Shown here in pieces: positions 14,189 to 17,986 of a stretch of DNA of 64,000 nucleotides (its first letter is position 1; each line of letters starts with the position of its first letter). This DNA comes from Bacteroidia bacterium (GTDB lineage Bacteria; Bacteroidota; Bacteroidia; Bacteroidales; Prolixibacteraceae): positions 1 to 64,000 of the forward strand of contig JAPLDT010000013.1 in assembly GCA_026391315.1 (NCBI GenBank), read 5' to 3'. A program made the translations under genes and the position numbers. The notes beneath the pieces were generated by a model, which was given only the letters and a program-made list of their open reading frames with translations, made no database searches and was not told where the DNA came from.

Positions 14189-14506
14189 CTAACGCGGATT
14201 TGATGATCCGTTTTTTGTAAGGTATCTAAAAATGAGCTCCTCCTCCTGAGTCGTTAGCTTAGCCTTTTTAGCCATTCTTACGGTTTGAAGTTTCCATTGA
14301 GTTGTGCTGTACTTTTCCGGAAGATACAGGGTATGGCAACTAGCGCATTTGTTGATGTAGATTGCCCTTCCTTTTTGCAATGTACTTAGCGTTTCTTTCG
14401 AAATCAGGGGGCTTTCGACGGGAATATACAGTGAGGTACTGCAGTCCAGTACTGATCCTGATAACAGGATCAAAATCCACGCTCGAATTTGTTTCTTAGA
14501 AGGCAT
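14189..14506 (-). CDS. Small secreted single-haem c-type cytochrome
   Basis: 105 residues from the ATG at 14506. N-terminal hydrophobic segment (WILILLSGSVLDC) for export, possibly a weak lipobox at Cys. One haem-attachment motif CASCH follows, with a likely axial Met in TVRMAKKAKL and a last helix LIFRYL. Periplasmic electron carrier. The start overlaps the stop of the upstream barrel gene by 11 bp, implying coupled translation. Electron partner unknown; probably the end of the six-gene unit 14189-17747. Confidence 0.82.
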   Translation of the reverse strand: MPSKKQIRAWILILLSGSVLDCSTSLYIPVESPLISKETLSTLQKGRAIYINKCASCHTLYLPEKYSTTQWKLQTVRMAKKAKLTTQEEELIFRYLTKNGSSNPR

Positions 14507-15302
14507 ATGAAAAGAGTAATCTGAATTGCACTTTTTCAAATTCATTCAGGTCTAACCTGCTGTTGGTCTCACCTTTAAATGATTTTATCTGAGGTAATGC
14601 GGTGAAGTTTACCCAAAAATTTTCCCGATTATAGGAGAAACCCAACCCGGAATAGAGGGCGCTGTGTTGCAATTCTTTCCCTACATAAACATTTCCAAAG
14701 TTATTTTCCTGAGTAAGATGAAATCCATAACCGATGGCATACCCAAGAGCAAGATTGTAATCAACATGGCCCTGCTTTTCCCATTTTAGTTGATTGGCAT
14801 TGTAAAACGGGGCAAACTCCCTTTCATAGGTTGCATTGCCGGCAATGGTCAGATTGTTGATCTTCTTGTCAATAATTAATTTGCCTTCGAGCTCATATTC
14901 ACTGCTGCTGATCCCATATTCTCCGTACAAAGCCAGACCAACCGGATTGGCAACAGGATCCGTCAATTTTAGTTTCCACTCGTTTGAAAAGCCGATTTCG
15001 TGCCTGGTGTCGGTTGTCTTTTGCGCTCCATCCATGACTGTTTGTGTGATGGAAGTCAGATTCAGGTAAAAGGAGGTCTGCAGATTGCCACCCAGGCCAA
15101 CCTCGAACTCCGTACGGTTATCCAGTCGCGAGAAAAAATCCTGTTTCCCCTGGCGAAGTGTATTCCAGACTTCAATCTCGCGTTGACCTTTATTCAGAAC
15201 ATTGCTTTGGTAGGTATAGGTGAAGATTCTGTCCTGAGCTTTTGAAACGAATGATAGAGATAAAAATGAGAAAAGCACAAATTGAAATCGAAACGTTTTC
15301 AT
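14496..15302 (-). CDS. Predicted outer-membrane beta-barrel protein
   Basis: 268 residues from the second ATG (15302; another ATG at 15308). Signal peptide MKTFRFQFVLFSFLSLSF ending SKAQ. The mature protein alternates aromatic and polar residues through strands (FTYTYQSNVL, TEFEVGLGG, TSFYLNLTS, LALYGEYGIS) and ends FRLLFSYAF, with the terminal aromatic Phe of barrels. Substrate unknown. Overlap with the cytochrome gene suggests the two work together at the envelope. Confidence 0.72.
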   Translation of the reverse strand: MKTFRFQFVLFSFLSLSFVSKAQDRIFTYTYQSNVLNKGQREIEVWNTLRQGKQDFFSRLDNRTEFEVGLGGNLQTSFYLNLTSITQTVMDGAQKTTDTRHEIGFSNEWKLKLTDPVANPVGLALYGEYGISSSEYELEGKLIIDKKINNLTIAGNATYEREFAPFYNANQLKWEKQGHVDYNLALGYAIGYGFHLTQENNFGNVYVGKELQHSALYSGLGFSYNRENFWVNFTALPQIKSFKGETNSRLDLNEFEKVQFRLLFSYAF

Positions 15303-15387
15303 GTACATAATAATTGGGTTTTATTGGTACACAAATAAACCGGCTTCAAATTCCTGGAGCAATCCCTATTTGTAGTGATTTTATTGG

Positions 15388-15945
15388 TTAATCGATCAGA
15401 TCGTTTATTACCGCATAAAGAGTAAGTCCCGAGATGGATTTTACTCCCAATTTTGAAGTTATGTGTTTACGGTGTGAGATGACCGTATGAATGCTGATAA
15501 ACAATTTGTCTGAGATCTTTTTGTTGCTGAAGCCGGTCGCAACAAGCCTTAATACTTCAGTTTCGCGGTCGGAAAGTTGAAGGGAGGGTTGCTTATGCTT
15601 ACCAAAGTTTGAGAATGCTTTCAGCTTGTTGAAAAGCACACCCTGTGTATCTGATTGATACAAAATCTCGTCAAAAAGATTGTTATCCGGAGTTTGTAAA
15701 GCATCAAAGTGAATTCCAACAATGGCAATATTTCTTCGCCTGAAAGATTTACAATGCTTATGGATAAATTCATACTCCCGGGTATCGATTAAAACAACAA
15801 TGTCATTCCATCCAATAATCATTTTGTTTTCAGGACACAAGGAGTAAGCCGCCGTCACTTCAATCTTTAGGGATTGAAGGATATTGGTTAATCCAATTTG
15901 TACGATTGGCCAGGGATGAATGACGATGCAGCTGCTAGAATGCAT
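15388..15945 (-). CDS. LuxR-type regulator with degenerate receiver domain
   Basis: 185 residues from the ATG at 15945. The N-terminal half aligns with NarL-type receivers (IVQIGLTNILQSL, VVLIDTREYEF), but the acidic pair that binds Mg2+ is replaced (IVIHPWP). An Asp in VLID may remain; the conserved Lys region is altered (VLFNKLKAF). The C-terminal half is a good LuxR helix-turn-helix (LSDRETEVLRLVATGFSNKKIS). It overlaps the hemerythrin gene by 11 bp and has no kinase neighbour, so control may not be by standard phosphorylation. Confidence 0.85.
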   Translation of the reverse strand: MHSSSCIVIHPWPIVQIGLTNILQSLKIEVTAAYSLCPENKMIIGWNDIVVLIDTREYEFIHKHCKSFRRRNIAIVGIHFDALQTPDNNLFDEILYQSDTQGVLFNKLKAFSNFGKHKQPSLQLSDRETEVLRLVATGFSNKKISDKLFISIHTVISHRKHITSKLGVKSISGLTLYAVINDLID

Positions 15946-16669
15946 TGCTTCGAAATTTTGTACCAAACAGTTTCAAAAGCCTTGGAACGAGAATTTTATC
16001 CTCAAAACGTGCATGATCGATCTGCTCTTTCTCAAAATGTGACAGTGTATGCAATATGTCATGAAATATCTGTATGTCAGCATTTTCCGGAATGTGTTGA
16101 AGGATGATGATAATCAGGTCACTAATTTCTGTCTCTACATTGTTGTGCTGACCAAAGAGTTTTTTTAGGTTGGCCGATGAAGTTTTTAAATCGCTTCTTC
16201 TGCCATTCTCATCGAGTATTCCAACGAGGGGGAAAATATATTTCTCCTCGAATTCAATATGGTCAATCAGCTTGGACACATAGTCATTTAAATATTTCTC
16301 GAGCGTGATAATCAACTTGGTATCAGGCAATTTAATTTTGAGTTCCTGCATTAAACTACCAAGGAGCGGAATGGTTACCTGCCTATGATGCTGATGCGTC
16401 CTGATAAGAAAATCAGTCAGCAAAGTAAGATTGACTGATTCTGTATTTGGAAAGTAATTGCTTGAATGATAGGTGTTCAAGACAGCCAACAAAAAATCTA
16501 AATCAATCTTCTTCTGTAGGCATATCTCCCCAAGAGTTGACTGTCCCACATTTGAACTTATGCCAAATCTAAATACAATTGGAAGCAAATCGATGTTTCG
16601 GCCTAATACTTCGCACAGTTTATCATCGGCTTCGATCAAAGCCTGTTCGCTGGAATCAGGATCTCTCAT
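15935..16669 (-). CDS. Ric/ScdA-like di-iron hemerythrin-domain protein
   Basis: 244 residues. N-terminal part (LCEVLGRNIDLLPIVFRFG to TLGEICLQKKIDLDFLLAVLNTY) matches the ScdA_N segment of Ric (YtfE) iron-sulfur repair proteins, but the usual CC pair is missing. The C-terminal part is a hemerythrin-like four-helix bundle with His/Glu ligands in RTHQHHRQ, DHIEFEEKYIFPL, GQHNNVETE and HFEKEQIDHARFEDKIL. It may sense or handle NO, O2 or iron. Start overlaps the previous stop by one base (TAATG) and its end overlaps the LuxR gene, so the genes are tightly coupled. Confidence 0.82.
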   Translation of the reverse strand: MRDPDSSEQALIEADDKLCEVLGRNIDLLPIVFRFGISSNVGQSTLGEICLQKKIDLDFLLAVLNTYHSSNYFPNTESVNLTLLTDFLIRTHQHHRQVTIPLLGSLMQELKIKLPDTKLIITLEKYLNDYVSKLIDHIEFEEKYIFPLVGILDENGRRSDLKTSSANLKKLFGQHNNVETEISDLIIIILQHIPENADIQIFHDILHTLSHFEKEQIDHARFEDKILVPRLLKLFGTKFRSNAF

Positions 16670-17238
16670 TATGAATCAATTTCTTTGGTATACAGTAATA
16701 TTTTCTGATTGTTACACAGTTCTAATTTAATTTTCCTATTGGTAACCAAAGCCTTAAATTCATTGTTTGCCTGTAATTTCCTTACTTCATTTTGAAGCTC
16801 CTGCATGCATGCAATGCATTGATTGGCTGTTGGTTGATCTTCCTCCAGCCAAAACAGGTTATTCCTGACAACCAAATTCAGATCATCCGGACAAGTTAGC
16901 GTCAGATTTTCATAGATCAGGACTTTATCCCTGGACAATGAACGGATCTCCTCGGTAAGCGAATTTTCTTCCTGCTGAAGTCCTGCGAATCTCTTTTCAT
17001 TCTGCTTAAATAGATAGTAGCCGGGGAATAATAAACCAACCACTGCAGATGTGAAAATGATATAAGCCATTTTACCCAATCCAAGGGTTTCTCCCCAAAA
17101 GATTCTGTGATTCACAAAAGAAATCACTCCAAAGAGCATCCAGAGAAGGGATCCATGCAGCAATAGAAATTTCCATTTTCTCTCTCTTTGGAGACTCCAT
17201 TTTTTATAAAACTTTGATTGAGCTATGTCCATTTTCAT
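16669..17238 (-). CDS. Two-transmembrane protein with coiled coil
   Basis: 189 residues; ATG codons at 17238 and 17232. TM1 is about KFLLLHGSLLWMLFGVISF and TM2 about AYIIFTSAVVGLLFPGYYLF, in the pattern of 2TM-domain proteins. A coiled coil follows (LQQEENSLTEEIRSLSRDK), then a soluble C-terminal part with a CIAC pair in NQCIACMQELQNEVRKLQ. Membrane-anchored with a cytoplasmic tail, possibly a scaffold or sensor for the Ric-like protein encoded next. Function unknown. Confidence 0.65.
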   Translation of the reverse strand: MKMDIAQSKFYKKWSLQRERKWKFLLLHGSLLWMLFGVISFVNHRIFWGETLGLGKMAYIIFTSAVVGLLFPGYYLFKQNEKRFAGLQQEENSLTEEIRSLSRDKVLIYENLTLTCPDDLNLVVRNNLFWLEEDQPTANQCIACMQELQNEVRKLQANNEFKALVTNRKIKLELCNNQKILLYTKEIDS

Positions 17239-17282
17239 ATTAATTTCAGAATAAAAGTCTGAATGTTAGTTGTTTGCGTGTG

Positions 17283-17747
17283 TCAATTGATTGTTATCCC
17301 TTTTTCAGCGGCAATAAAATTGATGGTATCCCTGGTTTCTATCAGAACTTTAAATTCGAGGTCGGAAAGTATTAATTTCGAGGATATACCATTTAAGTCA
17401 GTGATTTTAAACCAATTGGTTTTGTATTCCAAAGATTTTATGTGGTTCCATGGAATTGATTGTTCTTTTGTCCAAACCCCGGTTTTGATGGCAATTCGCT
17501 CTTCATCAATTTGAACATATGCGGCACCAAAGAATTTTTCAACGGAATAACCCAATCCATTGAGAATGCCAAAGATCCCATACACGAACATATATAGCAT
17601 CATAGGCAAAAAAGAGTTAGATTTTTCTTTGTCACCATGCATTCTGAGAGTAAAATAGGTGATAGCCAATATAATAGCAATCGCCCCCATTGCGAGGAAG
17701 AAATTTGATCTTTTTCTTTTTGGGATCAGGTCGATATTGAGTTCCAT
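17283..17747 (-). CDS. Membrane protein with PH-like domain
   Basis: 154 residues from the ATG at 17747; a longer frame to 17807 is not favoured. Two hydrophobic segments (FLAMGAIAIILAITYFTL and MMLYMFVYGIFGILNGL) precede a C-terminal beta-rich part (YVQIDEERIAIKTGVW, SIPWNHIKSLEYK, LILSDLEFKVLIETRD) that reads like a bacterial PH domain. First gene of the compact minus-strand set; 44 bp before the 2TM gene. Function unknown. Confidence 0.65.
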   Translation of the reverse strand: MELNIDLIPKRKRSNFFLAMGAIAIILAITYFTLRMHGDKEKSNSFLPMMLYMFVYGIFGILNGLGYSVEKFFGAAYVQIDEERIAIKTGVWTKEQSIPWNHIKSLEYKTNWFKITDLNGISSKLILSDLEFKVLIETRDTINFIAAEKGITIN

Positions 17748-17869: not shown

Positions 17870-17936
17870 CCCTTCGACAGGCTCAGGGACCGGTTTTAGT
17901 TTGGTGTATGCTTCGACCCTTCGACAGGCTCAGGGA
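17870..17936 (-). repeat. REP-like doublet (left flank of U32 gene)
   Basis: Two copies of CCCTTCGACAGGCTCAGGGA at 17870-17893 and 17917-17936, starts 47 bp apart. They are mirrored by the inverse doublet at 19956-20024. Confidence 0.85.
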
Positions 17937-17986
17937 GCTTCAGTGCATCTCATTAGCACATTGCGAAGTTTCCATATCTTCACCTT

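Follow-up and report, generated by a model that had tools for sequence, protein, structure and literature searches.

The locus considered here raises the question of which signal is read, and which targets are controlled, by a Ric-like di-iron protein (P0003) encoded directly before a LuxR-type regulator (P0004) in a member of the Prolixibacteraceae. Both genes lie between positions 14,189 and 17,747 of the window, the whole 64,000-nucleotide stretch of Bacteroidia bacterium DNA that was analysed (assembly GCA_026391315.1, contig JAPLDT010000013.1, positions 1 to 64,000). The earlier note on this sequence had placed them in a row of six same-strand open reading frames, and this layout was confirmed, all six being on the minus strand; the successive junctions, from the PH-like gene to the cytochrome gene, are a gap of 44 bp, overlaps of 1 and 11 bp, a gap of 85 bp and an overlap of 11 bp, the last becoming 50 bp if the alternative cytochrome start at 14545 is used. 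We consider it probable that the locus combines a CdhR-type, iron-responsive sensor-regulator pair with a target operon of its own, that the pair controls the handling of iron at the envelope, and that this is a variant carrying a cytochrome. In the mechanism that we propose, the Ric-derived protein would bind two irons in its four-helix bundle, the occupancy or redox state of this site would report cellular iron, and the LuxR protein would receive the signal through direct contact at its receiver-like domain. This regulator would bind an 8-4-8 palindrome, AATCCCNA-N4-TNGGGATT, and, by analogy with CdhR, would activate its targets at low iron. In the window the target would be an outer-membrane barrel and a lipoprotein cytochrome c; elsewhere, the targets may include feoAB, an OprB porin with feoAB, a porin with an FMN_bind-like protein, flavodoxin, DUF6686 and TonB receptors.

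The pair itself, its fusion and its response to iron are already known, so that the "undescribed" of the earlier note does not apply to the core of the locus. It corresponds to the published CdhR operon of a hemerythrin-domain protein and a response regulator, represented by PG1236-37 in Porphyromonas gingivalis and BT0519-20 in Bacteroides thetaiotaomicron, both induced under iron depletion, and by the fused PIN17_RS10465 in Prevotella intermedia (PMC10434189). CdhR is published as a regulator of hmuYR and is described as an activator of hmu (PMC10101095). The window pair shares with the CdhR operon its two-gene architecture, gene order, fusions in some genomes and an iron-related neighbourhood, and the flavodoxin/DUF2023 neighbours found in G230 and its relatives are also listed for BT0516-17; it differs in belonging to a divergent lineage and in being followed by the barrel and cytochrome genes. 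The literature search found no description of the palindrome or of a Feo linkage of the pair, although a published CdhR binding site may exist, nor of an origin from Ric in which the CC motif was lost, a pseudo-receiver or a barrel-cytochrome variant. No text on a motif, palindrome, promoter or FeoAB was found in the accessible portion of the published CdhR account.

The association of the two genes is a feature of the phylum. A search with P0003 matched 122 of 395 phylum genomes at E 1e-3, many of them weakly. Among 30 matched loci that were fetched, the window being one, the high scorers (L003-L014, L016, L017) adjoin or are fused with a similar regulator, and the remaining loci carry the N-terminal CC motif (DfCCgG) found in most bacterial Ric proteins or are unpaired. 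The wider collection was scanned with the regulator alignment (A2), the Ric-like alignment (A1) being too divergent for scanning, and this gave at least 588 confirmed relatives; in the best 80 of these, which were kept, a CC-less Ric-like gene is adjacent in 75 and fused in one. All loci pooled, 112 distinct pairs were obtained, 3 of them fused, after 9 of 121 loci had been dropped as duplicates or as lacking a pair, and the junction lies within 20 bp in 101 of the 109 unfused pairs. These counts retain L112 and L165, where the regulator is present and no Ric-like gene was found, L111, where the regulator starts at the contig end, and L138, which failed the spacing test only through an overlapping called start. 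In the window, the pair spans 15388-16669 and its two genes overlap by 11 bp. A tree of 71 rows, in which PG1236 and BT0519 do not appear by name, places the pair group, window included, on one side of a branch with a Shimodaira-Hasegawa-like approximate likelihood ratio (SH-aLRT) support of 99, as expected if the window pair and the other pairs have a common origin. The window lineage (the window, three congeners and L129) forms a long branch within that group, and the fused proteins of L013 and L178 cluster with G238 and G351, which fits the published Prevotella fusion.

P0003 scores above the cut-off of the hemerythrin-like family PF01814 (E 1.6e-8); its profile aligns with ScdA over the full length and with YtfE in part, and its structure model (predicted local distance difference test, pLDDT, 88.8) best matches the same two proteins. 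The six di-iron ligand positions, which in YtfE are H84, H129, E133, H160, H204 and E208 (PMC9268430), do not vary across the 40 rows of alignment A4 and are kept in 29 to 31 of the 31 rows of A1, the exceptions being L085 and L095. In these two loci (L085:4910-5620 and L095:4997-5764) the paired Ric-like protein has lost several ligands and the regulator still adjoins; such proteins may be degenerate sensors or may work in a metal-free mode. Cys50, a third cysteine, is retained by all 40 rows of A4 and by 30 of the 31 rows of A1; the row without it is L084, a locus with no called regulator neighbour. The CC motif is absent from P0003 and from the tested pair loci; it is also missing from three unpaired proteins, and paired proteins are thus not the only ones to have lost it.

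These features bear on a possibility that we regard as improbable, namely that the Ric-like protein serves in nitric oxide (NO) stress or Fe-S repair, as YtfE and ScdA do, and is merely co-transcribed with the regulator. The homology, fold and full set of ligand positions shared with the Ric/YtfE/ScdA family (TIGR03652), whose two-domain layout P0003 also has, would fit such a role. P0003 departs from that family in lacking the CC motif, in scoring 51.3 bits against a curated cut-off of 204.7 bits, in belonging to a group that stands apart from canonical Ric in the tree, and in being tied to one type of regulator, with fusion in 3 of 112 pairs. Identity as a canonical Ric was rejected on the score and the separate branch. 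Moreover, the NO reductase of the window genome sits with another hemerythrin: on another contig, C67 (L189:4543-7965), a second hemerythrin gene has a NorB-type NO reductase gene after it and is divergent from an Rrf2 regulator, a cluster that is likely the NO module of this genome. An NO-specific role of the window locus was rejected on this account. The earlier note had left the signal between NO, O2 and iron; iron is the best supported of the three, and no observation singles out NO.

The partner P0004 matches the GerE helix-turn-helix (HTH) domain (E 1e-18), and its structure model (pLDDT 89.7) matches NarL-type regulators. It thus resembles NarL/VraR-type response regulators in combining a receiver-like domain with a GerE HTH, but alignment to VraR indicates that neither the acidic pair nor the phospho-acceptor aspartate is conserved across its family. 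The acceptor column holds Asp in 6 of 40 rows; P0004 is among the proteins with Asp at this position, and has His-Pro in place of the acidic pair. By these residues, the regulator carries a pseudo-receiver domain. Control by phosphorylation was rejected as the mode of the family, the acceptor not being conserved, even though P0004 itself retains it.

A candidate operator emerged from an open count of k-mers and dyads in the intergenic DNA of pair loci, 131 regions in all, of which 73 precede the Ric-like gene and 58 separate the regulator from the next gene; the count brought up ATCCC-N8-GGGAT. The 8-4-8 palindrome, at three mismatches or fewer, occurs in 44 of the 131 regions against 0.84 in block shuffles, a contrast to be read with the pattern having been tuned on the same regions and the loci being related. 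It depends on the spacer, with 44 matches at a spacer of 4, 15 at a spacer of 5 and 0 to 5 at others. Most sites lie 50-70 bp upstream of the putative target's start codon; they occur in 14 of the 73 regions upstream of the Ric-like gene and in 30 of the 58 following the regulator. Recurrent next genes are preceded by the palindrome in 25 of 30 cases, other next genes in 5 of 28; by type, it is found before the 409-aa porin in 8 of 8 testable cases, DUF6686 in 7 of 7, the barrel in 5 of 5, OprB in 4 of 7 and FeoB in 1 of 1. The window site occupies the same place as those of the congeners, L129 and G014, and the regulator-barrel site has one mismatch in L061 and L062, two in L129 and three in L063. 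The G014 locus was not among the 131 regions, and a one-mismatch site nevertheless lies between its regulator and barrel genes; in G415, where the barrel and cytochrome genes occur without the pair, no palindrome was found, the best match having six mismatches. The whole window contains one other match at two mismatches or fewer, with 0.67 expected, and by itself the window site would carry little meaning; it draws its weight from the family and from conservation in relatives.

Two of the next genes deserve mention in their own right. A 400-aa outer-membrane protein without family commonly comes next after the pair (L064, L065, L068, L106, L116, L120, L127, L176 and others), often followed by a protein whose FMN_bind-like label rests on an E of 5e-4, just under the cut-off. 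DUF6686 is the next gene at L099, L073, L075, L145, L070, L101 and L173, the Pfam assignment having been made on the L075 copy.

The palindrome is also found away from the pair. In six pair-bearing genomes, 19 sites were found at one mismatch or fewer, 3 of them at the pair locus, and 13 of the 16 unlinked contexts were viewed. Unlinked sites precede feoA-feoB in G408 (no mismatch), G428 (none) and G409 (one), OprB-feoAB in G414, flavodoxin-DUF2023 in G351 and TonB receptors in G409 and G408; the labels are Pfam matches, except that FeoB was assigned by eye in G428 and G409. In eight genomes without a found pair, 16 sites were obtained and 11 contexts viewed, 8 of them inside genes. FeoAB, OprB-FeoAB, flavodoxin or TonB-receptor contexts thus account for 7 of 13 in pair-bearing genomes against 0 of 11 in the others (Fisher p 0.005), and for 5 of 13 against 0 of 11 if TonB receptors are left out (p 0.03). 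The window genome (G000) has 39 sites at two mismatches or fewer, compared with 11 for the reversed pattern, its other one-mismatch sites all lying within genes; G398 (L208) and G400 (L205) each have one further one-mismatch intergenic site, before genes without known iron role. The perfect palindrome of G408 (L240:3706-3725) lies between feoAB and a divergent gene for a small CCxGxC protein, beyond which comes a receptor-like gene (assigned by eye; genes to 7001), and is possibly a two-way operator.

A FeoB-like gene lies at most four genes away in 20 of the 112 pair loci, where about 0.4 would be expected under random Feo placement, in a count for which the loci are not independent and Der/Era GTPases were taken out of the FeoB cluster by eye. 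Because of this linkage, the published induction of the pair at low iron and the palindromes before feoAB and flavodoxin, iron is the best-supported signal. An oxygen or redox signal is a less probable, indeed rather unlikely, explanation: the di-iron site would always be loaded, O2 binding or oxidation would alter the contact with the regulator, and the barrel and cytochrome would adjust electron transfer to oxygen. Bacterial hemerythrin-domain sensors have been reviewed as sensors of oxygen and redox state (PMC9388753), cdhR and hmu are reported to be down in microaerophilic conditions (PMC10101095), and the putative window targets are redox proteins. The published induction by iron depletion, the Feo linkage and the placement of the palindromes speak against oxygen as the signal, while being compatible with a combined iron/O2 signal.

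The limits of the unit are given by synteny. The order and strand Ric-like gene, regulator, barrel, cytochrome are kept in five other genomes: the congeners G400, G398 and G397, the genome of L129, and G014, which comes from outside the class of the window and whose proteins are about 29-55% identical. As judged from this synteny, and from G415, the conserved unit is these four genes, and the barrel-cytochrome part is able to stand alone. Of the compact six-gene module envisaged in the earlier note, and of the gene-neighbourhood comparison that it proposed, what holds is thus the recurrent order from the Ric-like gene to the cytochrome, whereas the grouping of six is not conserved. The idea that all six form one functional module, in which the PH-like and two-transmembrane (2TM) proteins would serve the sensor as membrane partners, has in its favour their common strand and tight spacing in the window and the adjacency of both genes to the block in G397, where they lie downstream of it. 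We consider it very improbable. Neither gene is at the block locus in G400 or G398, where no 2TM homologue was found at E 1e-3 (G398 being 83% complete), and no PH or 2TM match was found in the G014 stretch bearing the block. Conversely, the syntenic site of G401 holds PH-2TM and lacks the block, its neighbours being the YraN/MmcQ-like genes that also occur close to the block in the window, and no Ric-like gene was found in G401; G399 has U32 peptidase-2TM-patatin there, also without the block (YraN, MmcQ and U32 labels by eye). The six-gene module was rejected on this mutual independence, and the PH-like and 2TM genes are probably a separate pair outside the unit.

Downstream of the regulator, the barrel P0005 has no family match in Pfam or NCBIfam, and seven homologues were aligned. 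P0006 has a single CxxCH and weak family matches; C67, C70, H71, M91 and the lipobox C35 are invariant in 7 of 7 homologues, and with CxxCH, distal Met and lipobox Cys all present it is predicted to be a lipoprotein c-type cytochrome. By analogy with the porin and FMN_bind-like protein, and with OprB and FeoAB, of relatives, the barrel and cytochrome probably provide an envelope route for reductive iron handling, which is the weakest step of the proposal. The earlier note's idea of a metal or redox sensor working together with transcription control and electron carriage in the envelope is supported, iron being the best-supported signal.

Table 1. Features of the locus, in window coordinates.
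Feature	Coordinates	Strand	Remarks
Ric-like di-iron protein P0003, 244 aa	15935..16669	minus	ScdA_N-like domain without CC motif, and hemerythrin-like bundle; proposed sensor
LuxR/NarL-type regulator P0004, 185 aa	15388..15945	minus	GerE HTH; predicted pseudo-receiver domain
Proposed operator AATCACTA-CAAA-TAGGGATT (minus-strand letters)	15361..15380		58 bp before barrel ATG (15302)
Outer-membrane barrel P0005, 268 aa, signal peptide	14496..15302	minus	Fold inferred from sequence by eye
Lipoprotein mono-haem cytochrome c P0006 (predicted)	14189..14506	minus	CxxCH at 14333-14347; alternative upstream ATG 14545 possible
2TM/coiled-coil protein P0002	16669..17238	minus	Adjoining gene, probably outside unit
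PH-like membrane protein P0001	17283..17747	minus	Adjoining gene, probably outside unit

The label of the PH-like gene derives from a sub-threshold bPH_2 match (E 0.0023). Upstream of it, at 17870-17940, lie two copies of an intergenic repeat, ccttcgacaggctcaggga. In congeners, whether or not they have the block, a patatin-like gene lies close to the same site (L061:4260-6089, L062:680-2515, L063:3580-5415, L194:1-1298), the label coming from Pfam for the L061 copy and from similarity for the other three.

Several observations weigh against an iron-responsive CdhR-type pair in the window. Its lineage is divergent within the pair group, and the likening to PG1236-37 and BT0519-20 is made by published description. 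At the two positions matching the iron-channel glutamates of YtfE (E125 and E159), it has Lys133 and Gln174, where relatives have mostly Glu (133) and often Glu (174). The LuxR protein is linked to the palindrome by position and the operator is a predicted one, as are iron binding and DNA binding for all members considered here. Flavodoxin as the next gene has the palindrome in 0 of 2 cases, and no palindrome was found before the window genome's own feoAB. Finally, counted over whole genomes, the palindrome yields similar numbers where no pair was found (16 in eight genomes) and where the pair is present (19 in six); it is the contexts, not these counts, that separate the two sets of genomes.

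With iron retained as the preferred signal, a broader picture can be put forward more tentatively, as one that may well prove wrong. Across the phylum, a CC-less, Ric-derived iron sensor might act through a phosphorylation-free regulator on one 20-bp operator to control a low-iron regulon separate from Fur, the regulon of the window lineage having shrunk to the barrel and cytochrome as a candidate route of reductive iron acquisition. The set of ligands, the predicted pseudo-receiver and, above all, the predicted operator with its coherent iron regulon make the question experimentally approachable, and the operator offers a functional lead for DUF6686, with a possible role at low iron, and for the unnamed barrel and cytochrome. 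Among eukaryotes, FBXL5 is a hemerythrin iron sensor. Arabidopsis BRUTUS is described as another (PMC12022348). The window pair would share with both the reading of iron by a hemerythrin-like di-iron site; they are ubiquitin ligases, whereas the output proposed here is DNA binding through a partner protein. If this is true, the pair would be a bacterial counterpart of the eukaryotic hemerythrin iron sensors and an iron switch apart from Fur.

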